This document shows, piece after piece, positions 51,320 through 62,926 of a stretch of DNA of 64,000 bases. How positions within the stretch are numbered: the stretch's first letter is position 1; each line of letters begins with the position of its first letter. The DNA lies in assembly GCA_030539395.1 (NCBI GenBank), contig JAUNSC010000015.1, forward strand, positions 1 through 64,000, in the 5' to 3' direction. This DNA comes from Eubacteriales bacterium. Its GTDB lineage: Bacteria > Bacillota > Clostridia > Lachnospirales > Lachnospiraceae. The position numbers and the translations under genes are program-made. Under the pieces are notes generated by a model. That model ran no database searches and was not told where the DNA came from. It saw only the letters and a list, made by a program, of their open reading frames with translations.

Positions 51320-51385
51320 AAAAACATCCCACAGGAATCCTCGAACAGGCTTATACCTGCTAAATTCCTATTGGGATGCTTTTTA
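51320..51385 (-). terminator. Terminator at the end of the GRE / two-component locus
   Basis: CATCCCA (51325-51331) pairs with TGGGATG (51372-51378), with further inner pairings AGGAAT/ATTCCT and CAGG/CCTG, and A/T runs on both sides. It overlaps the histidine kinase stop codon region. Confidence 0.8.
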
Positions 51386-53025
51386 ATTTCGAAGTTCTGC
51401 CGGAATTGTAATCAATATTTTTGTCCCATGCCCCAAAGCACTTTCAATCGTAACTCCATATTGTTCCCCATAAAATATTTTAATCCTCTGATTTACATTC
51501 CATATTCCATAACCACGTATTTCTTTCTCTTCACGGATTTTATCGTTCATTCTTTTGTTTAATTGTTCCAAAGTAACCGCATTCATTCCTTTCCCATTAT
51601 CTTCCACGATAATTTCCAGATTATCACCCCTCCTGGTACATGTGATTCTTATAAAACCATGTTCATTTTTAGATTTGATTCCATGATATATCGCATTTTC
51701 TACAATTGGCTGCATAATAAATTTTATAATCCTGCATTCTAGTATTTCATCAGAAACCTCTACTATCCAATCCAGTTGTTCTTCAAATCGGAATTTCTGT
51801 ATTTTAAGATAGTATGTAACATGCGCGACCTCTTCTTTTACAGAAATAATGTTCATTCCACGATTTAAACTAAGCCTGAATAGTCTTGACAAATTTGTTA
51901 CCATTGCTGCAACCTGCAAATCATCATTTTTTCTTGCAAGCATATTAATAGAATCTAATGTATTATACAAAAAATGTGGATTTATTTGATATATCAACGT
52001 CTGCAGCTCAAGATATTTACTCTGCCTCTCTTTCTCCGTGACACTTTTAATCAGGCCAGTAATTTGCATTGCCATAACATTCAATACACTCCCAAGCTCT
52101 GTGATTTCATCTTTCCCACTCAAATGTATTTTAATATCAAAATTTCCTTTGCTGTACTGCTTTACAACTTCCTCCATCTGCTTAATAGGCTTTGTTATCT
52201 GCCGGGAAATTACCGTACTTAAAAAAAAGCACTAAAGAGAATTATGCAGAATACTACTGCCAGCCGGGAAAACAGCTCTGCTGATATACTCGACGCTACC
52301 GTATCTTCTGTCCATGTTCTTAAATACCAGTCTCCAATATCAATTTTTGTATGCAACAGATTATCATAATTATCATAATAATTATAAAAAAAACCCTGTT
52401 CTGTCACTTCAAAACCATTGGTTATTCCTTTCAACGAAAAGCGCTGATTGTTTTGCAATCTGAAGCGGTTAAAATATGCCTGTATATTTTCATTCTTTAC
52501 CTGCATAAACAAATATATATTTTTATCGTAACCTTCAACCTTAAAACAGCGGAACAGCATAATACTGTTTGTTGCATAACCGGAGTCCCATACACAGGTA
52601 TCTCCAAAACGTTCTGCCGTACTTATCCGATCAACCATATATGTTGAAATATCCTGCAATTCTTCTGTACCCACATAATCATAGGACGGTTTTATTACAA
52701 ACATATTATTAATAAACTCCAGCCTAGCCGCTGTCTCATTCAGATACATCAATAATTTTTGGCTATTTTCTGATAAGACCCAATCTGCGGCTGCAGCATC
52801 AAAATTCTCATCATCCTGTATTTCATTAAGTGCATTCTCGCATCTTTCCCTGAAATATTCTATAGATGTGCAAAGGGCTGCGGCCAGCATATCCTGGTTC
52901 TTTTGCTGCGTATGAATCATAAAATTAGTCAGAATCCCATATGATAACATACCTGTTGCCAAAGAAAAAAAGATAGCTATTCCACAAAAAGATACTGTAA
53001 GTTTCGTTTTAATTGATCTGAACAT
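51383..53025 (-). pseudogene. YesM/LytS-type sensor histidine kinase, split by a one-base frameshift
   Basis: Two reading frames together make one ~547-residue sensor kinase. The first (52219-53025) has an N-terminal membrane helix, a ~200-residue extracellular sensor and the start of the second helix. The second (from within the HAMP region; first ATG 52177) has HAMP, the phosphoacceptor motif QINPHFLYNTLDS and the ATP-binding VEDNGKGM and GYGIWNVNQRI motifs. The frame breaks in a run of eight A at 52222-52229 (T on the coding strand); one more base restores it. It could be a true mutation, a phase-variable or slippage site, or a sequence error. It overlaps the regulator gene by 17 bases. 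Confidence 0.88.
52222..52229 (-). other. Eight-base homopolymer at the kinase frameshift
   Basis: A run of eight A (plus strand) at the end of the first kinase frame, where adding one base rejoins the helix and HAMP region (reading on as STVISRQITKPIKQ). Confidence 0.9.
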
Positions 53026-54211
53026 CGTTACGCTGCCTTTTCCTTCTATAATATCCCGGTGTTTCCCCAGTTATTTTTTTAAACTGCTGATTAAAATAGT
53101 AAACGCTCGTATATCCTGTCTTCTCCGCAATCTCCTGATTGCTTAAATTTGTAAACTCTAATAACTCTTTTGCCAGATCAACTCTATAATTCTGAATAAA
53201 TTCTATACACGTGACTCCCATCCTTTTCTTAAATATTCGTGAAAAATATGCCGGTGTTACATGAAGCGAACGTGCAATTGTATTTATATTAAAATCTTTG
53301 TGCTGTATTTCTTCCCTAATTATCCTGATCGACTTTAATACAATATGATCCATCTCTTCGCTGATATTTGGACAGCCTTCTCTTATTTTATAACAGGCCG
53401 CCTCTATAGAAGATGGCAACTCTAACAGATTTGTCACATAACTGCCTACCGCTACACTGATTATTTCATCTGTAAGTTCACTTACTCTATCCTGAAGAGT
53501 AAATAATTCTGCCTGTAACGGTTCATTTTTTAACAGTACCACCATATGCTCATTGATAAGAATTGTATTCAAATAATCTGCGAAACACAATGACGCTATT
53601 TCCTCTGCCTTCTCTGATATTCGAAGCAGCCTTGAAAAGTTACCAGCCTCTATAACAACACAGCAGACTCCGGAATTTTTAACAGACAGTCTTAGTTGTC
53701 TGCTTCTTGATTCAATATCCGACTCATCTCGTATATTTCCATAAGCAATATCTTTCCACAAATTTTTTTCCATCTGTATTTTGTAAACATTTATTATCTC
53801 CTCTGTTTTTAATACTTTATTTTCAAATTCAATATTGCTCTTTACCTGGCTTAGCGCATCTTTCACTGCATCTTCAAGTTCTTCGGGAATTACCGGTTTC
53901 AGCAAATATTTGAATACCCCCGCTTCAATTGCCTCTTTTGCATACTCAAAATCCTCATAAGCTGACAAAAGTATTACTTTCGTGGCCGGCCATCTGTCCT
54001 TTATTTGTTTTGCCAGTTCTATTCCGTTAATATCCTGCATATAAATATCTGTAATTACAATCTCGTAACGCTCTTGTTCAAGATATTTTAAGGCAACACC
54101 TGCATTTTCTGCCAGCTTAAGTTCTTCACCGGACAAATATTTCCAATCAATCAGATCAGCTATTCCCTCCCGAATCAATCGTTCATCATCCACAAATAAT
54201 ATCTTTCCCAT
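53009..54211 (-). CDS. YesN-type response regulator with AraC DNA-binding domain
   Basis: This 400-residue regulator has an N-terminal receiver domain (phosphoacceptor D55 in VITDIYM; VDDE at 8-10; LKPVIPEEL with the conserved lysine) and a C-terminal AraC helix-turn-helix pair (NINTIARSLHVTPAYFSRIF and LSNQEIAEKTGYTSVYYFNQ). Regulators of this type control carbohydrate uptake operons with YesM-like kinases. I chose ATG 54211 (GKILFVDDERLIREG). It probably controls the adjacent transporter and glycyl radical enzyme genes. Confidence 0.92.
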   Translation of the reverse strand: MGKILFVDDERLIREGIADLIDWKYLSGEELKLAENAGVALKYLEQERYEIVITDIYMQDINGIELAKQIKDRWPATKVILLSAYEDFEYAKEAIEAGVFKYLLKPVIPEELEDAVKDALSQVKSNIEFENKVLKTEEIINVYKIQMEKNLWKDIAYGNIRDESDIESRSRQLRLSVKNSGVCCVVIEAGNFSRLLRISEKAEEIASLCFADYLNTILINEHMVVLLKNEPLQAELFTLQDRVSELTDEIISVAVGSYVTNLLELPSSIEAACYKIREGCPNISEEMDHIVLKSIRIIREEIQHKDFNINTIARSLHVTPAYFSRIFKKRMGVTCIEFIQNYRVDLAKELLEFTNLSNQEIAEKTGYTSVYYFNQQFKKITGETPGYYRRKRQRNDVQIN

Positions 54212-54279
54212 ATTTCCATCCTTTATAAAACAGAAGCCATTCTTTACCACAACCGGAGCATATCACATTATAACAAATA

Positions 54280-55284
54280 TCACTGCTTATTACATTCTGC
54301 ACGTTTTTGAAAAAAAATATCAATATATACTGCAAATACCAGAATTGCTCCCTTAATCAGGTATTGATAAAATGAAGGAATATTGATCATGTCCAGTCCG
54401 TTATTCATCACAGCCAAAAAGGCTGTTCCAATTAGCGTGCCAACGACACCTCCATTTCCTCCCGACATACTGGTACCTCCCAAAGCTACCGCTGTAATAA
54501 AATCCAGTTCATATCCCTGAGCAGCTACCGTGGATGCCGACGAAAGTTTTCCAACCAGGATCAATCCGCTTAATCCGGCTAAAGCGCCACACAATGTGTA
54601 GCATAACAGGATAATATTATCAGATTGCATTCCGGCCAGTCTGGCAACCTCCCTGTTTCCACCTACTGTATATACAGCTCTTCCAACCCTGGTATGCTTC
54701 AGCATCACATAAAGCAATACAAAAGTAAAAATAAAAATAAGCAGCTGAATGGGTATTTTCCAAACATTTCCCAATCCGATCATATAGTATCCATTATTCA
54801 TAAAAGTAATCGGCGATCCTGAAACACCACGGACAACAAAATCTGCCACAACATACACAAATCCTCTGGATATTGACATCGTTGCAAGTGTAGATACAAA
54901 CGGTGCAATATGCAATTTTGCTATGCATAATCCATTGAGGCATCCTATACCTCCACATACCGCCAATGCAATAACAACCGTTAAAATGAACGGAAGTTTT
55001 ATTGGATTCGCAGCGCCAATAGCATTTCCCAGAAGCCCTGCACCCACAACACCAGCCAACGCCATATTAGATCCTGCCGACAGATCAGTCCCTCCTGTTA
55101 AGATTACCAAAGTCATACCCATAGATGCAATACCATACATGGAAAATGTCCGCAAAATATTGTCTACGCTTCTGGCGTTGATAAACTCCGGTTTTATCAA
55201 GGTAAAACTCACAATCATTACCAGCATCAAAAACAACACTAATTTCTGCTGATTAAAACTTAATATCTGCCTTCTTTTATACAT
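54280..55284 (-). CDS. CUT2-type sugar ABC transporter permease (second)
   Basis: A 334-residue RbsC-like permease with about ten membrane segments and the family motifs GMTLVILTGGTDLSAGSNMA and GGTSMSGGNGGVVGTLIG. The start ATG 55284 follows GGAGG and overlaps the other permease by eight bases. It forms the channel with the permease at 55277-56293. Confidence 0.92.
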   Translation of the reverse strand: MYKRRQILSFNQQKLVLFLMLVMIVSFTLIKPEFINARSVDNILRTFSMYGIASMGMTLVILTGGTDLSAGSNMALAGVVGAGLLGNAIGAANPIKLPFILTVVIALAVCGGIGCLNGLCIAKLHIAPFVSTLATMSISRGFVYVVADFVVRGVSGSPITFMNNGYYMIGLGNVWKIPIQLLIFIFTFVLLYVMLKHTRVGRAVYTVGGNREVARLAGMQSDNIILLCYTLCGALAGLSGLILVGKLSSASTVAAQGYELDFITAVALGGTSMSGGNGGVVGTLIGTAFLAVMNNGLDMINIPSFYQYLIKGAILVFAVYIDIFFQKRAECNKQ

Positions 55285-56293
55285 CTGTGTTACCTCCAGC
55301 TTCTCCTGCTTTTTTCTGAGGCAGAATAAAATGACCACCCAGTGCAAGTATAATCACAATTCCCTTTATTAACAGTTTAAAATATGTTGGCATCCCCAAA
55401 ATATTAAGACCATTTTCGATAATTCCAAATATAAATACACCAATAACAGTTCCGGTAATCGAACCTGCTCCTCCGGATTGAACCGTTCCTCCCAAAACAA
55501 CACTGGCAATTATATCCATTTCATAAGATTCACCGGCAACCGCCGAAGCAGATGCCACTCTGGATGTCATAATAATACCTGCAATACCTGCAAATACAGC
55601 CATGATAATATATGTCAGACATACATTTCTTTCCACTGGAATGCCGGACAGTTCAGCCGCCTCTTTGTTTCCTCCTATCGCAAACAATGATCTGCCGTAT
55701 TGCGTGTATTTTAGCAGATATCCCCCTAAACAGATCACCAGAATAAATATCAATGCCGGCACAGGTAAAATTCCAAAATATCCTTTTCCAAACCAGGCGA
55801 AATCATCTGGAATAGGCTTAAAATTAATTGGATACCCGCCCGTGTATAAGTATGTAATACCCCTGGCAAATGTCATCATTGCCAGAGTTGCAATAAATGG
55901 TTCTACCTTCAGTTTTACAATAATCAGTCCGTTTACAAGTCCTATAGCCGCAGCAGCGGCAAGACCGATAAGAATTGCGACAAATGTATTGCATTTAAAC
56001 AAATTACTCGTAATATAATCACTGTAGCTGCCCGATACAAAGGATGCCGTTACAGCTCCGGCAACAGCAAACGTAGATCCTACCGAAAGATCAATTCCGC
56101 CCGTCAGCAAAACACAGGTCATGCCCACCGACATAATTCCCTTAATAGAATTAACCCGAATGATATCAATCATATTTCCCACCGTCATAAAATTAGGTGC
56201 TATTATACTCATACCTGTGATAAGAACCAATAGGGTAATCAAGATAACCGCATGTGGTTTTAGCGCTTTTTCCACTCTTAAACTTTTCCGCAC
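55277..56293 (-). CDS. CUT2-type sugar ABC transporter permease (first)
   Basis: A 338-residue RbsC-like permease (GMTCVLLTGGIDLSVGSTFA; YTQYGRSLFAIGGNKEAAEL; LGGTVQSGGAGSITGTVIG). Two different permease genes in tandem suggest a heterodimeric channel. It lies 14 bases after the ATPase gene. Confidence 0.92.
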   Translation of the reverse strand: MRKSLRVEKALKPHAVILITLLVLITGMSIIAPNFMTVGNMIDIIRVNSIKGIMSVGMTCVLLTGGIDLSVGSTFAVAGAVTASFVSGSYSDYITSNLFKCNTFVAILIGLAAAAAIGLVNGLIIVKLKVEPFIATLAMMTFARGITYLYTGGYPINFKPIPDDFAWFGKGYFGILPVPALIFILVICLGGYLLKYTQYGRSLFAIGGNKEAAELSGIPVERNVCLTYIIMAVFAGIAGIIMTSRVASASAVAGESYEMDIIASVVLGGTVQSGGAGSITGTVIGVFIFGIIENGLNILGMPTYFKLLIKGIVIILALGGHFILPQKKAGEAGGNTDV

Positions 56294-56307: not shown

Positions 56308-57804
56308 TTATAAAGTCTGCCCGGTCGCATATGCCATAATCTTCTCCTCAGAAAACTCAGGTCGTTTTAATTCACCGGAAATTTTTCCCTCATGCATTAC
56401 CAAAATACGGTCGCATACTCCAATCAGTTCCTGCAACTCGGAAGAAATCATCAAAATTCCCATCCCTTTCTCTACCAGTTCATTCATTAATTCATAAATT
56501 TCAACCTTTGCCCCTACATCTATTCCCCTTGTCGGTTCATCGATAATCAAAACTCTGCAATCTGCACTGAGCCATTTACTGAGTACCACCTTTTGCTGAT
56601 TTCCTCCTGAAAGATTATTCACTATTGTCCACACATCAGGAGTTACGATTCTCAGTCTCTCCACATAATTTTCCGTGTCACGTATTTCAGTTCTTAAATT
56701 AAGCTTACCTAATTTTGAAAATTTATTTAAGCTTGCCAATGTAGTGTTTTTAATCAAATTCATAATCAAAACCAATCCCTGCCTTTTACGATCCTCTGGA
56801 ACAAGTCCGATTTTTTTTGAAATAGCATCTCTGGTGTTCTTTATATGTATTTCTTTTCCCTCAATTCTGATTTTTCCCGAATATATAGAATCCGCCCCAA
56901 ATATGGCTCTTGCCAGTTCGGTCCTTCCTGCTCCGACCAGTCCGGCCAGTCCCAGGATTTCCCCTTTATGAAGTACCAGATTTATATTATCCAACTTGTC
57001 GGCCGTACTCAGATTCTTTACTTCAAGCACAGGGGAACCTGTTACTGCACGAGACCGCGGATACATATCAGTAAGTTCTCTTCCAACCATCATCCGAATC
57101 ATATCACTTATTTCGATATCTTTTACCTGTGCATTCCCAACATAGCATCCGTCCCTTAAAAACGTAATACGGTCACATATTTCTTTGATTTCTATTAATC
57201 TGTGTGAAACGTAAATAACAGCTACATTATTTGCTTTTAATTCGCGGACCACCTGAAACAGATTATCAATCTCTATTTGCGTCAGCGGTGCGGTAGGCTC
57301 ATCCATGACAATAATTTTTGCATTCTGGGACAACGCTTTTGCTATCTCAACCATCTGCTGCTGTGCCACTTTTAGTCCTGAAACAGCTGTTCTCGGATCA
57401 ATATCAAGTCCTACTTTATTAAGGAGCTTTCTACTGTCCTCATAACATTTTTTCCAATCGATTAATCCATTTTTCTTAACAGGCTGACGCCCAAGAAATA
57501 TATTCTCTGCAATACTTAAATGAGGCAGATTATTGAATTCCTGATATATAACAGATATTCCCAATTCTTCTGCCAGCTGTGGTGTCATTTGATCTATTTT
57601 TTTTCCATTAACAACAATTTCACCTTCATCTTTTGAGTATGCACCGGAAAGTATCTTCAATAATGTTGATTTTCCGGCACCGTTTTCTCCCAAAAGTGCA
57701 TGGACCTCTCCACATCTTACTTCCAAATTAACTTTTGTAAGAGCTTTTACTCCCGGAAAGGATTTACTAATATTACGCATACATAAATAGCTGCTTTCGC
57801 TCAT
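56308..57804 (-). CDS. CUT2-type sugar ABC transporter ATPase with two nucleotide-binding domains
   Basis: This 498-residue RbsA-like protein has two ABC domains. The first has Walker A GENGAGKST and Walker B IIVMDEPTAPLT; the second has the usual degenerate Walker A (GLVGAGRTEL), signature LSGGNQQKVVLSKWL and LIIDEPTRGIDVGAK. ATG 57804 follows AAGGAG. It follows the activase gene, so the transporter and the radical enzyme are one transcription unit. Confidence 0.93.
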   Translation of the reverse strand: MSESSYLCMRNISKSFPGVKALTKVNLEVRCGEVHALLGENGAGKSTLLKILSGAYSKDEGEIVVNGKKIDQMTPQLAEELGISVIYQEFNNLPHLSIAENIFLGRQPVKKNGLIDWKKCYEDSRKLLNKVGLDIDPRTAVSGLKVAQQQMVEIAKALSQNAKIIVMDEPTAPLTQIEIDNLFQVVRELKANNVAVIYVSHRLIEIKEICDRITFLRDGCYVGNAQVKDIEISDMIRMMVGRELTDMYPRSRAVTGSPVLEVKNLSTADKLDNINLVLHKGEILGLAGLVGAGRTELARAIFGADSIYSGKIRIEGKEIHIKNTRDAISKKIGLVPEDRKRQGLVLIMNLIKNTTLASLNKFSKLGKLNLRTEIRDTENYVERLRIVTPDVWTIVNNLSGGNQQKVVLSKWLSADCRVLIIDEPTRGIDVGAKVEIYELMNELVEKGMGILMISSELQELIGVCDRILVMHEGKISGELKRPEFSEEKIMAYATGQTL

Positions 57805-57821
57805 ATTTATTCTCCTTGTCC

Positions 57822-58760
57822 TCAATATCTTGCTATCGTTAACCCGAAATCTTCCGCTCTCTTCTCTAATTGAACCATTAAATCCTTCGCAGGGGATTCC
57901 AGATCAGAAAGTTCATACTCTTTCCCTATGTTTCCATATTTTCCTCTGCCAAGCCTGTGATACGCGATTAGCTGATAATAATTAACTCCCGGCAGGTTTT
58001 CACGAATCCATTCGGCCATACTTCCAATCGTGTCTATATCATCATTAACTCCCGGTATGACAGGTGTCCTTATAACCGTCTCCAGTTCATGGCTTTTCTT
58101 ATATTCGGATACTTTTTTCATATTTTCCAGAATAATCCTGTTGCAGACACCAGTATATTTATCATGCTTTGCAGAATCCAATATCTTGAAATCCATGAAC
58201 AGAAAATCTAAATATGGGAGACACTGTTCCACAATCTCCCAGACGGCAAACAAACTGGTTTCCATAGCTGTGTGAATCCCCTTTTCCTTTGCCGATTTAA
58301 GCAGTTCGAGTAAAAAATCCGGCTGTGCCAGAGGTTCACCTCCGGTAACCGTAATTCCTCCCCCACTTTTTGCATATATTTCCTGATCCCTCATGACCTC
58401 ATCTAAAATTTCTGATACGGTTGTCTCTTTTCCCATAACCTTCAATGCTTCCGAATAGCATTCCCTTGTACATGCAAATCCTTTCTCAGTCCCAGAGTAA
58501 CATTTATTTCTGCACTTACCATAATCAATCGTTCTGCCGCTTTTATTCTGCCTTATAGCATCATGCGGACAATTTTTGATGCAGCTTAAGCAGCCAATAC
58601 ATTTATCAGCAAAAAATGCCAGTTCACTGCATTTTTCTTGAGATTCCGGGTTACTGCACCATTTACACGAAAGAGGACAGCCTTTAAAAAATACATTCGT
58701 TCTTATTCCGGGTCCGTCATGCAGACTCCATCTTTGTATGTCAAAAATTACGCCTTTCAA
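57822..58760 (-). CDS. Glycyl radical enzyme activase (radical SAM)
   Basis: This 312-residue enzyme uses S-adenosylmethionine and a [4Fe-4S] cluster to abstract hydrogen from the glycine of its GRE partner. The CxxxCxxC motif is C28, C32, C35 (GCPLSCKWC); an inserted ferredoxin-like domain follows (CIGCLSCIKNCPHDA and a second Cys-rich stretch CRNKCYSG...CTREC). GGITVTGGEPL is the SAM-binding motif. I chose TTG 58760 after AGAGGTG, giving the family-typical start KGVIFDIQRWSLHDGPGIRT; GTG 58769 is possible. The two extra cluster motifs resemble activases of non-PFL GREs. Confidence 0.93.
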   Translation of the reverse strand: MKGVIFDIQRWSLHDGPGIRTNVFFKGCPLSCKWCSNPESQEKCSELAFFADKCIGCLSCIKNCPHDAIRQNKSGRTIDYGKCRNKCYSGTEKGFACTRECYSEALKVMGKETTVSEILDEVMRDQEIYAKSGGGITVTGGEPLAQPDFLLELLKSAKEKGIHTAMETSLFAVWEIVEQCLPYLDFLFMDFKILDSAKHDKYTGVCNRIILENMKKVSEYKKSHELETVIRTPVIPGVNDDIDTIGSMAEWIRENLPGVNYYQLIAYHRLGRGKYGNIGKEYELSDLESPAKDLMVQLEKRAEDFGLTIARY

Positions 58761-58785
58761 ATCATGCACCTCTCATCTTATTATA

Positions 58786-58834
58786 CAAAAAATACCGGCG
58801 CTGCACCTTTCTAGTTTTGAGCAGCACCGGCATT
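58786..58834 (-). terminator. Terminator-like hairpin between GRE small subunit and activase
   Basis: AATACCGGCGCTGC (58791-58804) pairs with GCAGCACCGGCATT (58821-58834) with two G-T pairs, a 14-base stem, followed on the minus strand by six T. It lies just after the small subunit stop codon and before the activase gene, so most transcripts may end here. Confidence 0.8.
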
Positions 58835-58846
58835 GTAACTCATTCA

Positions 58847-59092
58847 TTAAATTCTTTCTTCAGTTCTTTCGATAATATCCTGCTGCACTTTTTTTTCAAG
58901 ATTTACAAAATATGCAGAGTATCCAGCCACACGCACAATAAGATTCTGATATTTGGCTGGATCATTTTGAGCTCTCAGCAATGTCTCACGGCTCACGACA
59001 TTAAACTGCATCTGCATACCGCCTAAAGAAAAATAGTAATCAATCAGATTTATCAGCCGGTTAAGCCCAACGCTTTGGATAGTCTGATCCAT
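58847..59092 (-). CDS. Stand-alone glycyl radical domain (GRE small subunit)
   Basis: This 81-residue protein is the C-terminal radical domain of a glycyl radical enzyme encoded as a separate gene. It carries FSLGGMQMQFNVVS (21-34) and the radical motif RVAGYSAYF with Gly57, ending VQQDIIERTEERI. It starts at ATG 59092, seven bases after a strong AGGAGG site, in the 48-base spacer after the large subunit. The large protein lacks this domain, so this looks like an obligate subunit rather than a YfiD/GrcA-type spare part. It happens to be in the same frame as the large gene, with TAG and TAA stops between. Confidence 0.9.
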   Translation of the reverse strand: MDQTIQSVGLNRLINLIDYYFSLGGMQMQFNVVSRETLLRAQNDPAKYQNLIVRVAGYSAYFVNLEKKVQQDIIERTEERI

Positions 59093-59140
59093 AATAATTC
59101 CTCCTGTTTTACATAAGTAATTCATCGATTCACATTACCG

Positions 59141-61408
59141 CTAATCGCGCAAATCCTGAGGCAGCAATTTCATATTATACAATGATCCTTCTGAAAGGAT
59201 TAAGTTATTGCATCTTGCTACAGATCTCACTGCAGCCGTCGGTCCTTTTCCATCGGTTCCTCTCATAGGAGACTGCCCATCCGATAATGGCATTCCATTT
59301 GTTCTTCCGTCAGGAAGTGAACCTGTCAATAAGCCAAATGGCGTATTTGAAGAAACGGTTGTTGTGGACGCCTGAAAGATACCGCCAATAGGCCCTCTTC
59401 CATTTCTCGTGTTTTCATACCGGGGTAATTCTTCACATACACTTTCCAGTACTCGACGAACCAACATATCCACTTCCTCAATATCATTTCCATATTTTGG
59501 TACATGCAGGCAAATCTGCTGTATCTGCGGTCCGGTAGGAGATGTATTCATATCTTTAAAATCAGTACTCAGTGCATGCATAAGCTGTGCTCCTGTAAGT
59601 ATCTTATCATCAAAAACCAGTTTCTTCACTGCATAGAGACTATTGCCTGTATTTGCTGTGCCAATCGTTTCGTTACCGGTAAAGTCATATTTTGCTCCGC
59701 CTTTGAAGATTGATTTTCCTCTCTCCAGCGTTGTTTGTGTACATCCAAGAACAGAAAACAACGGTTCTTCCATGTATTCTTCCCAAAGATAATCTGTTGT
59801 GTTATCCATGATGGCATGAATCTTTGCATAATACTTCATCTGATCAATAAATGCATCCCAAACCTCATCAAAATTTTCAAATGTTGATAAATCTTTATCA
59901 TTGCAGTTCTTGTGAAGTGTTATACCGCTCCTTGGATCTTTCCCATTGTATAGTGAAACTTCCAGAATTTTTGCCAGACAAAACCACGCTGCACCGGTTC
60001 TTCCACCGCGCAGACCGGCAACACCGGGCTCTGCACAGCCAACAATGCAGTAGTCAGAAGCATCTTTCCTGCTATAACCACGATTCATCATTGCCGGAAT
60101 ATACAAATCGTCATTTGCAATTGCCGGGAATCCTGTTCCAAGCCGAATTGTTTCTGCAATTTTCAGTTTAAATGCTTTCGGTGTATTCTTATGCCATCTG
60201 ACATAATGTGACGGCTGCAGTGTTCGGGCATTTGCAATACAGTCCATTATAATGTAGGACAGCTCATTCGTTGCATCCTCACCAGTCTTAGAATCAATCC
60301 CTCCCGTTGTAAGATTCTGGAAAATCGGCTTTCCTCTAAAATATGCCGTATCATCCCATGAACGCATTCTCTCAACAGTGGAAAGCAGAACAAAAAAGTT
60401 TTCAATCAGCTCCTCCGCCGATTCATCAGTTAAAATGCCCTCTTCCTTATCTTTACGATAAAACGGAATCATAACCTGATCAAATCTTCCCGGACTAATC
60501 CCCTGGCCATTATCCTCAATCTGGAGCCCAAACTGGACAAAAGTCATAAATTGCAAAGCTTCATAGAATGACTCCGCCGGATTCTCCGGCACTTTTCCGC
60601 AGACTTGTGCCAATTTTGCGAGTTCTTTTTTTCTATTTAAATCTGTTTCTGTTTCCGCCATGCTTTCTGCAAGTTTCTGATATCTGTGAGCATAATCAAT
60701 CATTGCCTCACAAACAATTTTTGCAGCCTGATAAAATCGGTTTTTATTAATCCCTTCAACTGTCCACAATTCCAGTTTTGACAACTCCTCATCGCAGATT
60801 CTGATGATTTCTTTTAATCCATTTGTAAAAAGCCATGTCCAGGGAGGCGTTAAATGCCCGCTTCCGCCATGCATAAAATTCACTATATTTACCGCTCCGA
60901 TATCATCCTGAGCCAAAACAGCTTCCTGAGGAAGATTTGCATAAAGCCGGTCTTTATGGGTATTTCCCTTCCAATAATCAATTATCTTTTTTAGCTCAGG
61001 CACATCAGCGCGATTATATTCAATCTTATCTGCCGGTCTCTCATCCGGAAAATAGGGTTTTCCGTGAATAAATTCTTCTTCGAGAAAATCAACTGCATAT
61101 TCAGGAAAAAGTGGAGCATAGTTTGGTTTGCTTGCCTGATTTCCTGCCAGTAAACTTCCTGGCAGGATATAAATTGACATCTTGTTTAAAATATTTTTCA
61201 AAGATAATGCACGTAACATTATAGGTGGTATAGACTGATTATTTTGATATACCTCAGTAATAATCCGTCCTCTTTCCATGCACATTCCAACCTTGGAAGC
61301 TCCCACATAATCATATAACTTCTCTATTCTCTCTGATCTCTTTGGTGCCTGATGAATCTGAAAATGAAATGGTTCCCGCTCCAATTCCTTTTTTTCATCC
61401 CTGTGCAT
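59141..61408 (-). CDS. Glycyl radical enzyme large subunit lacking the radical domain (PFL2/dehydratase-like)
   Basis: This 755-residue protein has the barrel part of a GRE: C458 and E460 in IVGCAEPG, the Cys-x-Glu arrangement of eliminating GREs (glycerol/diol dehydratase, choline lyase type), rather than the Cys-Cys of pyruvate formate-lyase. It ends LYNMKLLPQDLRD with a TAG codon, exactly where a fused enzyme would go on into the radical domain. With the 81-residue partner the total is 836 residues, the normal GRE length. ATG 61408 follows GGAGG by five bases. Substrate unknown; location with a sugar-type importer suggests a polyol or similar compound. Confidence 0.9.
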   Translation of the reverse strand: MHRDEKKELEREPFHFQIHQAPKRSERIEKLYDYVGASKVGMCMERGRIITEVYQNNQSIPPIMLRALSLKNILNKMSIYILPGSLLAGNQASKPNYAPLFPEYAVDFLEEEFIHGKPYFPDERPADKIEYNRADVPELKKIIDYWKGNTHKDRLYANLPQEAVLAQDDIGAVNIVNFMHGGSGHLTPPWTWLFTNGLKEIIRICDEELSKLELWTVEGINKNRFYQAAKIVCEAMIDYAHRYQKLAESMAETETDLNRKKELAKLAQVCGKVPENPAESFYEALQFMTFVQFGLQIEDNGQGISPGRFDQVMIPFYRKDKEEGILTDESAEELIENFFVLLSTVERMRSWDDTAYFRGKPIFQNLTTGGIDSKTGEDATNELSYIIMDCIANARTLQPSHYVRWHKNTPKAFKLKIAETIRLGTGFPAIANDDLYIPAMMNRGYSRKDASDYCIVGCAEPGVAGLRGGRTGAAWFCLAKILEVSLYNGKDPRSGITLHKNCNDKDLSTFENFDEVWDAFIDQMKYYAKIHAIMDNTTDYLWEEYMEEPLFSVLGCTQTTLERGKSIFKGGAKYDFTGNETIGTANTGNSLYAVKKLVFDDKILTGAQLMHALSTDFKDMNTSPTGPQIQQICLHVPKYGNDIEEVDMLVRRVLESVCEELPRYENTRNGRGPIGGIFQASTTTVSSNTPFGLLTGSLPDGRTNGMPLSDGQSPMRGTDGKGPTAAVRSVARCNNLILSEGSLYNMKLLPQDLRD

Positions 61409-61418
61409 TTCATCCTCC

Positions 61419-62462
61419 TTACCAGCCCGCATATTCCGGCTCATTGCAATTGGTACTGTCAACTTTATAACATGTAGGGCGGACCCATGTAAAACCATCA
61501 TCTGTTTCTGTAACTTCAATCGGAGTTCCTTTATACTCAATATTACTGTAATCCACTTCTTCTCCTTTAGCCAGCTTATATGCAATCTCTACGGCAACTG
61601 CCTGCTCATCCGGCATGAACATTACTTCATAGTTAATCTTGCCCTCTCTTACAGCATCCAGAGCTTCTTTTTCTCCGTCCACACTGATAACTGTAAATTC
61701 ACCTAATCGTCCTGCTGCTTCAATTGCCTGAAGTCCTCCAAGAGCCATCTCATCATTCATATAATAAATCACATCGAAGTCGCCTTTGTCAGGATATCTC
61801 TGCAAAATTGTTTCAGTAACTTCCATTCCTTTGGTTCTGTCAAAATCGCCGTCCACTTTGTAAATAACCTCTACCCCCGGTTCTTCTTCCAGTTTAGAGT
61901 AATATGCACCGCCTCTGTCAATTGTCGAACCTGATCCCGCAGTTCCTTCAACAACAACTACTTTTCCTTCCGCCTTTCCTGCACCACCAAGAGCCTCGAT
62001 TGTCTGTTCTGCTCCCTGAGCACCTGACAAAACCATATCCCAGGTTACATAGCAGTCCCAGGTTACATCCTGTCCCTGCTTCAAAAGTCTCCTGTCTACT
62101 ACAATAAACGGAATTCCTGCATCATTTATTTTCTTAACCGACGGAAGCATCGGATCAGAAACCGCGGCAGTCAATATAATCGCGTCCATGTCCTGTGCAA
62201 TAAAATTATCAATCTGAGATGCCTGTGTAGTGGCGTCATTTTTTCCATCCGCAAAAATCAGTTCACAATTCTCAAGGCCGTCCGCAACTTCTTCGGCGCC
62301 CTGCATCAGCAACTGATAAACCGGATGATCAAAATAGGCCATTGCCCATCCGATAGTAACTTTTTCATCAGCACTTTCTGCCATTACTCCAGAGCATCCT
62401 GTTCCTAATACCAGTACGCTTGCCACCATGCTAACCATTATTTTTGTTATTCGTCGTTTCAT
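61419..62462 (-). CDS. CUT2-type substrate-binding lipoprotein
   Basis: This 347-residue extracellular binding protein has a lipobox (VLGTGC, C23) and a Peripla_BP_4 two-lobe fold: GWAMAYFDHPVYQLLMQGA, DAIILTAAVSDPMLP, IPFIVVDRR and the hinge-region motif YYMNDEMALGGLQAIEAAG. It should capture a sugar-like ligand for the transporter encoded downstream. It is the first gene of the locus and ends 10 bases before the GRE start, so uptake and enzyme are made together. Confidence 0.92.
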   Translation of the reverse strand: MKRRITKIMVSMVASVLVLGTGCSGVMAESADEKVTIGWAMAYFDHPVYQLLMQGAEEVADGLENCELIFADGKNDATTQASQIDNFIAQDMDAIILTAAVSDPMLPSVKKINDAGIPFIVVDRRLLKQGQDVTWDCYVTWDMVLSGAQGAEQTIEALGGAGKAEGKVVVVEGTAGSGSTIDRGGAYYSKLEEEPGVEVIYKVDGDFDRTKGMEVTETILQRYPDKGDFDVIYYMNDEMALGGLQAIEAAGRLGEFTVISVDGEKEALDAVREGKINYEVMFMPDEQAVAVEIAYKLAKGEEVDYSNIEYKGTPIEVTETDDGFTWVRPTCYKVDSTNCNEPEYAGW

Positions 62463-62843: not shown

Positions 62844-62926
62844 TGCCGGCAGTGGGACTTGAACCCACACGTGGTTGCCCACAACAGATTTTGAGTCTGC
62901 CTCGTCTGCCATTCCGACATGCCGGC
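62844..62926 (-). tRNA. tRNA-Leu (anticodon CAA)
   Basis: The 83-base sequence folds with acceptor arms GCCGGCA and TGCCGGC plus an A discriminator, an anticodon loop CTCAAAA (anticodon CAA), the long variable arm of a leucine tRNA (TTGTGGGCAACCAC region) and the T arm GTGGGTTCAAGTCCCAC. No CCA is encoded. It reads UUG codons. Confidence 0.93.

Follow-up and report, generated by a model that had tools for sequence, protein, structure and literature searches.

A probable two-subunit glycyl radical enzyme with its radical domain encoded by a separate gene

Introduction

To our knowledge, the catalytic cysteine and the radical glycine of glycyl radical enzymes (GREs) have been taken as parts of one chain, and the swing of the glycyl domain toward the activase is hard to study because the domain cannot be removed. 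Benzylsuccinate synthase and 4-hydroxyphenylacetate decarboxylase have more than one kind of subunit, as does the system described here, but in both the large subunit carries the cysteine as well as the radical glycine, and the small subunits bear no radical.

A separate glycyl domain that gives its radical to a barrel without a working one is known from YfiD/GrcA. As described in the parts of PMC8683613 consulted, YfiD rescues oxygen-cleaved PFL in trans and cPFL:YfiD is active, which provides a precedent for a cut PFL working with a separate glycyl domain. These parts also present YfiD as a repair add-on for a full PFL, with a disordered N-terminal half and a repeat of a partner strand, so that it duplicates part of the C-terminus of its partner; YfiD residues 1-60 and cPFL residues 696-733 mattered for binding. 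Its authors regard only YfiD and Y06I as validated there, and add that further such proteins could work with different GREs. PMC11528403 deals with relatives whose radical sits on Ala, Ser or Thr, and split chains are not mentioned in the parts of that paper examined. More generally, no report of a natural split GRE was among the matches listed in the literature searched, a weak absence given that most subscription papers lie outside its scope. The two-gene GRE proposed here would thus be a variant not found in that literature, rescue by a separate domain (YfiD) being already known.

Results

The window, that is, the whole stretch of 64,000 nucleotides analysed, carries the two genes side by side (Table 1). 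The large protein matches the PFL-like family at residues 25-692 (PF02901, 644.3 bits) and has a Cys458-Ala-Glu460 motif and a His185 that aligns with GRE relatives. Its end matches positions 2-46 of the Gly_radical model (22.1 bits, just missing the cut-off of 22.2), and the small protein matches positions 50-106 (76.9 bits); the two matches are complementary, with zero overlap. Judged from sequence, the cut is in the linker that joins barrel and glycyl domain. An earlier note on this DNA had described a large protein with the cysteine motif that ends at TAG, a next gene of 81 residues with RVAGYSA (Gly57) and its own AGGAGG, and a spacer in the same frame with TAG, then TAA, plus a ribosome site. 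All of this was borne out by reading the sequence, and the coordinates of the large protein were confirmed.

Table 1. The two genes, their junction and the surrounding gene cluster in the window.
Feature	Position	Strand	Description
Sugar-type periplasmic binding protein	61419..62462	(-)	Peripla_BP_4; best NCBIfam match RbsB, under cut-off
Putative large subunit, PFL-like barrel	61408..59141	(-)	755 aa; ORF reading, family searches and homologues
Thiyl Cys458 codon	60037-60035	(-)	
Stop codon of large gene	59143-59141	(-)	TAG
Spacer	59093..59140	(-)	48 nt; CGG, in-frame TAA, Shine-Dalgarno; sequence reading
Second in-frame stop, after TAG and CGG	59137-59135	(-)	TAA
Shine-Dalgarno	59105-59100	(-)	AGGAGG, 7 nt upstream of small-gene ATG
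Putative small subunit, stand-alone glycyl radical domain	59092..58847	(-)	81 aa; ORF reading and Pfam
Gly57 codon	58924-58922	(-)	In RVAGYSA
Terminator-like hairpin	58786..58833	(-)	13-bp stem, then T run; between small-subunit gene and activase
Radical SAM glycyl-radical-enzyme activase	57822..58769	(-)	315 aa, 4Fe-4S motifs; TIGR02494 339.8 bits (cut-off 174.35)
Sugar ABC transporter ATPase, double-ABC, RbsA-like	56308..57825	(-)	By reading; cluster c2
ABC permease, RbsC-like	55277..56293	(-)	By reading; cluster c1
Second ABC permease, RbsC-like	54280..55347	(-)	By reading; cluster c1
Response regulator, AraC-type output domain	53009..54250	(-)	By reading; cluster c5
Sensor histidine kinase in two frames	51383..53025 (52219-53025 + 51383-52177)	(-)	By reading; cluster c6

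Among solved GREs, glycerol dehydratase and YbiW/PflD-type chains (PDB 1r8w, 8id7/8yjn, 8yjo) match the large protein best (phmmer E 1e-138 to 1e-101). They have the same PFL-like barrel, the Cys-X-Glu motif and the aligned His185, and plasmid ybiW genes are about 36% identical to the large protein over 95%; their glycyl domain, however, lies in the same chain, whereas here it is a separate one. Of the marks of a PFL/glycerol dehydratase family GRE, the locus has the PFL-like barrel with the thiyl Cys and neighbouring Glu, and the cognate radical SAM activase, which is the next gene and belongs to the same cluster in relatives. It does not have the glycyl radical domain in the same chain, since two genes share the Gly_radical match, and the large protein scores 582.6 bits against TIGR01774, below the cut-off of 678.2. 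Glycerol dehydratase has a His-Asp after the Cys loop where the window enzyme has Thr471-Gly472, and the YbiW chain has Thr-Gly at the same position, like the window enzyme. The His and Asp of glycerol dehydratase are presumably substrate residues. A glycerol dehydratase proper would have both; here the His is aligned at 185 and the Asp position is Gly472.

A large gene with a separate small gene next door was found at 15 loci in 14 genomes, window included (the window, L035, L037, L038, L039, L040, L092, L087, L088, L089, L090, L094, L098, L101 and L091; L038 and L094 both come from genome G807, L056 duplicates L035 and is not counted again, and L061 was left out because its gene is cut by the contig end). 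Sixteen split-type large genes are whole, and 15 of them adjoin a small gene, the exception being L025, which lacks a small gene of its own. Used as query against named genomes, the large protein recovered 21 loci: six near ones (65-83% identity), five split and one fused, and 15 far ones (34-36%), all fused. The remaining loci came from searches of further genomes, in overlapping samples (counter 1588 genomes). The split occurs in Bacillus canaveralius, Candidatus Mediterraneibacter surreyensis and gut clostridia, among others. Few genomes carry the pair: among 397 sampled from the same family, 6 (window genome and L061 included) match at E 1e-220 or better. The 24 matches in plasmid records are all below 60% identity, as are the 1528 phage records matched in a scan with the small protein, and the viral contigs searched gave zero matches. 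Since related bacteria have the same two-gene arrangement, the split looks, as far as gene comparison goes, like a real, long-kept enzyme design and not a broken gene. Genome G807 holds both a clade A pair (L038) and a clade B pair (L072/L094; the clades are defined below), with a small gene for each.

In ten pairs drawn from five clade A loci, the small gene (64 codons) has a dN of 0.017-0.080, with a dS of 0.73-2.33 in five pairs and saturated in the other five; the small gene is under strong purifying selection. For the large gene, also in clade A loci, dN is 0.069-0.146 and dS is saturated in 9/10 pairs. Neither gene has the look of decay. The proposal of the earlier note that this is a two-subunit GRE gains support from the recurrence and from the strong purifying selection on the small gene.

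We then considered whether the large protein is tied to its own radical domain at all, or whether the small chain is shared or another GRE lends a domain in trans. Such a loose arrangement is suggested by genome G022 (L087, G022:C118:58000-77000), in which two neighbouring large genes, one without its own small gene, are 92% identical (676/732 residues; dN 0.040, dS 0.329) and both intact, with a single small gene within the 19 kb read. Against it, the small gene is a constant neighbour at nearly all the whole split-kind large genes counted above, and the window genome, 94% complete, yielded no further PFL-type domain. We therefore regard it as unlikely.

It is also very unlikely that the small protein acts as a YfiD/GrcA-like repair cofactor beside an incidental or inactive large protein. 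Its length is that of a glycyl domain and it gives weak matches to GrcA models, but it misses all three cut-offs: NF038360 with 69.1 bits (cut-off 158), NF008341 with 48.8 (145) and TIGR04365 with 42.8 (170). The four Gly_radical matches in the window genome are the two parts described here and two NRDD proteins (anaerobic ribonucleotide reductase, NrdD-like), and no PFL for a spare part to mend was found in that 94% complete genome; the spare-part reading fails because the other two Gly_radical proteins are NrdD-like. The large protein next door lacks exactly this domain, and the parts of PMC8683613 cited above describe a YfiD that repeats part of the C-terminus of its partner, where the two chains here have no Pfam position in common. 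The small chain would be the enzyme's only radical site and is encoded beside its own barrel. Against the two-subunit reading, it is without an N-terminal arm like YfiD 1-60. NF038360 is GrcA3, a described stand-alone family of 78 positions that resembles the small protein; its members may include additional two-gene enzymes, or spare parts that serve GREs other than PFL.

The junction itself varies among the 15 split loci. With the window counted in, the large gene ends with TAA at eight loci, TGA at four and TAG at three; spacers measure 6-153 nt; at ten loci both genes share a frame, and at five the small gene is shifted by 2. Upstream of the small gene, a Shine-Dalgarno match reaches at least 4 nt at 14/15 loci and at least 5 nt at 12/15, compared with 15% and 4.5%, respectively, of 12,768 ATG/GTG codons in the same loci. 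At L090 there is no match at the GTG used, and the start is unsure. The expectation of the earlier note for homologues held in that the split recurs with its ribosome site, although L036, L099 and L078 are fused; the contrary outcome, all close homologues fused and a split in the window genome alone, was not what we found.

Readthrough of the stop codon or frameshifting, by which one fused protein would still be made, is highly improbable. Both genes of the window share a frame, and the small domain retains the sequence of a fused C-terminus, but translation would have to pass two stops and a start with AGGAGG across a spacer in which folding revealed nothing notable (z 0.19), and elsewhere all three stop codons are used and a third of the loci are out of frame. 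A recent break or sequence error in a gene meant to be fused, to which the in-frame spacer, the fused close relative L036 and the two-frame sensor kinase of the same operon might point, is scarcely credible given a split that recurs in 14 genomes with differing stops, spacers and frames, the Shine-Dalgarno of at least 5 nt at most of these loci and the purifying selection on the small gene.

The same two parts are joined by a 4-residue linker in L036 ([Clostridium] symbiosum ATCC 14940), as in the other fused near relatives, L099 and L078, which are deeper than L036. In a tree of 27 large chains, all split rows together with fused L036 and L099 form a group of 18, and the next branch out is fused L078 (support 87/86). 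Clade A (the window, Bacillus canaveralius, G938 and kin; support 100/100) has L036 nested inside it, and clade B is likewise supported at 100/100. The fewest changes on this tree are three, one split and two fusions (L036 and L099), compared with four for a history of three splits and one fusion. A topology with L099 outside and the split rows plus L036 as one clade is not rejected by the AU test (p-AU 0.161), and one split and one fusion are then enough. One clade of split rows without L036 is rejected (p 2.9e-6), which places L036 inside the split clade. Taking L036 as the ancestral state, a reading prompted by the linker it shares with L099 and L078, needs clade A to have split four or five times in parallel at one identical residue (tail DL[RK]D plus stop), so we prefer to see it as probably a natural re-fusion of the pair. 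Since L036, L099 and L078 manage with one chain, the chemistry does not need the split. Large genes of clade A stop 2 residues past the linker Asp-Leu (tail DL[RK]D), and those of clade B 1 residue past Asp-Leu or Glu-Leu; L077 stops 19 residues past. With stops at such different places, the split may have arisen more than once.

The gene cluster is shared as well. All eight clade A loci have genes for the binding protein, activase and ABC ATPase next to the GRE; permeases are present there at 7/8 (the L036 contig ends) and the cluster c5 regulator at 5/8. At five clade B loci (L087, L088, L089, L094 and L098) the gene after the small one encodes the binding protein, and the activase lies beyond the transporter; the activase comes after the small gene in L101 and upstream in L091, and L090 is cut. 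Neighbours at G938 and G1196 comprise a DeoR regulator, a ROK kinase, a class II aldolase, a phosphoglucose-isomerase-type SIS protein and a PfkB kinase (assigned by family search for G938 and by cluster for G1196), and fused L093 neighbours a fucose-isomerase-like protein and an aldolase.

In the window, the whole 77-nt gap between the small gene and the activase folds with -24.9 kcal/mol (z -4.06), and a hairpin is found at the same place in 8/8 clade A loci. The best 60-nt segment within the 150 nt that follow the GRE gene scores z -3.0 to -5.6 at all ten loci with the activase after a gap (the eight of clade A, L102 and L101, fused or split, with hairpin sequences unlike one another), z +1.7 to -2.7 at six loci with the binding protein next and z -1.5 at L093, where the activase abuts; these values are inflated because the best of 18 segments was taken, and the loci were grouped after the z values were known. 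The hairpin is probably an attenuator that would hold the activase below both enzyme subunits, which precede it.

The sensor kinase, a likely partner of the response regulator, lies in two frames of 268 and 264 aa that are 41 nt apart, and in relative L097 it is in one frame of at least 532 aa (the sequence compared ends there); the two frames may reflect a frameshift, a break or a sequence error. Just upstream of the binding-protein gene are a tRNA gene (62844-62926, (-)) and a terminator-like hairpin (62719-62696).

Discussion

Taken together, these results make it highly probable that the two genes encode a two-subunit GRE, probably of the eliminase type. In this two-subunit enzyme the 755-residue chain would form the barrel and hold thiyl Cys458 with the Glu and His residues, and the 81-residue chain would make up the whole glycyl radical domain. 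The radical SAM activase encoded next door would take a hydrogen from Gly57, and the small chain would dock in the barrel where the C-terminus sits in fused enzymes, presumably in that order; the radical would then be handed to Cys458 in each turnover. Both genes lie in one putative operon with their own ribosome sites and would share one mRNA, and the hairpin past the small gene probably lowers activase output. We infer that the two chains are active and that their pairing is obligate.

A sugar or polyol substrate might enter through the ABC transporter. Motifs and neighbours suggest that the enzyme is probably an eliminase acting on such an imported, sugar-like substrate; C-O or a similar elimination on that compound is our guess at the reaction. 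Glycerol dehydratase is listed among the GRE eliminases in the part of PMC7077986 consulted.

The small chain might further be a diffusible, exchangeable radical carrier that is charged off the barrel, serves more than one catalytic chain and is replaceable after oxygen damage without remaking the 755-residue barrel. The second of these properties is suggested by G022, where the stretch read holds two large genes and a single small one; we consider the idea as a whole speculative and rather doubtful.

A natural two-chain GRE would allow activation, docking and catalysis to be measured apart, affinity and exchange rates to be obtained, and radical subunits and barrels to be mixed. The split also suggests an answer to oxygen damage, namely the replacement of just the 81-residue chain. 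The natural fused and split relatives form a ready control pair. The fused outgroup enzyme L093:8324-10945 (G947) reads RVAGYVAYF at the radical motif, compared with RVAGYSA in the other rows examined, Val replacing Ser two residues past the radical Gly.
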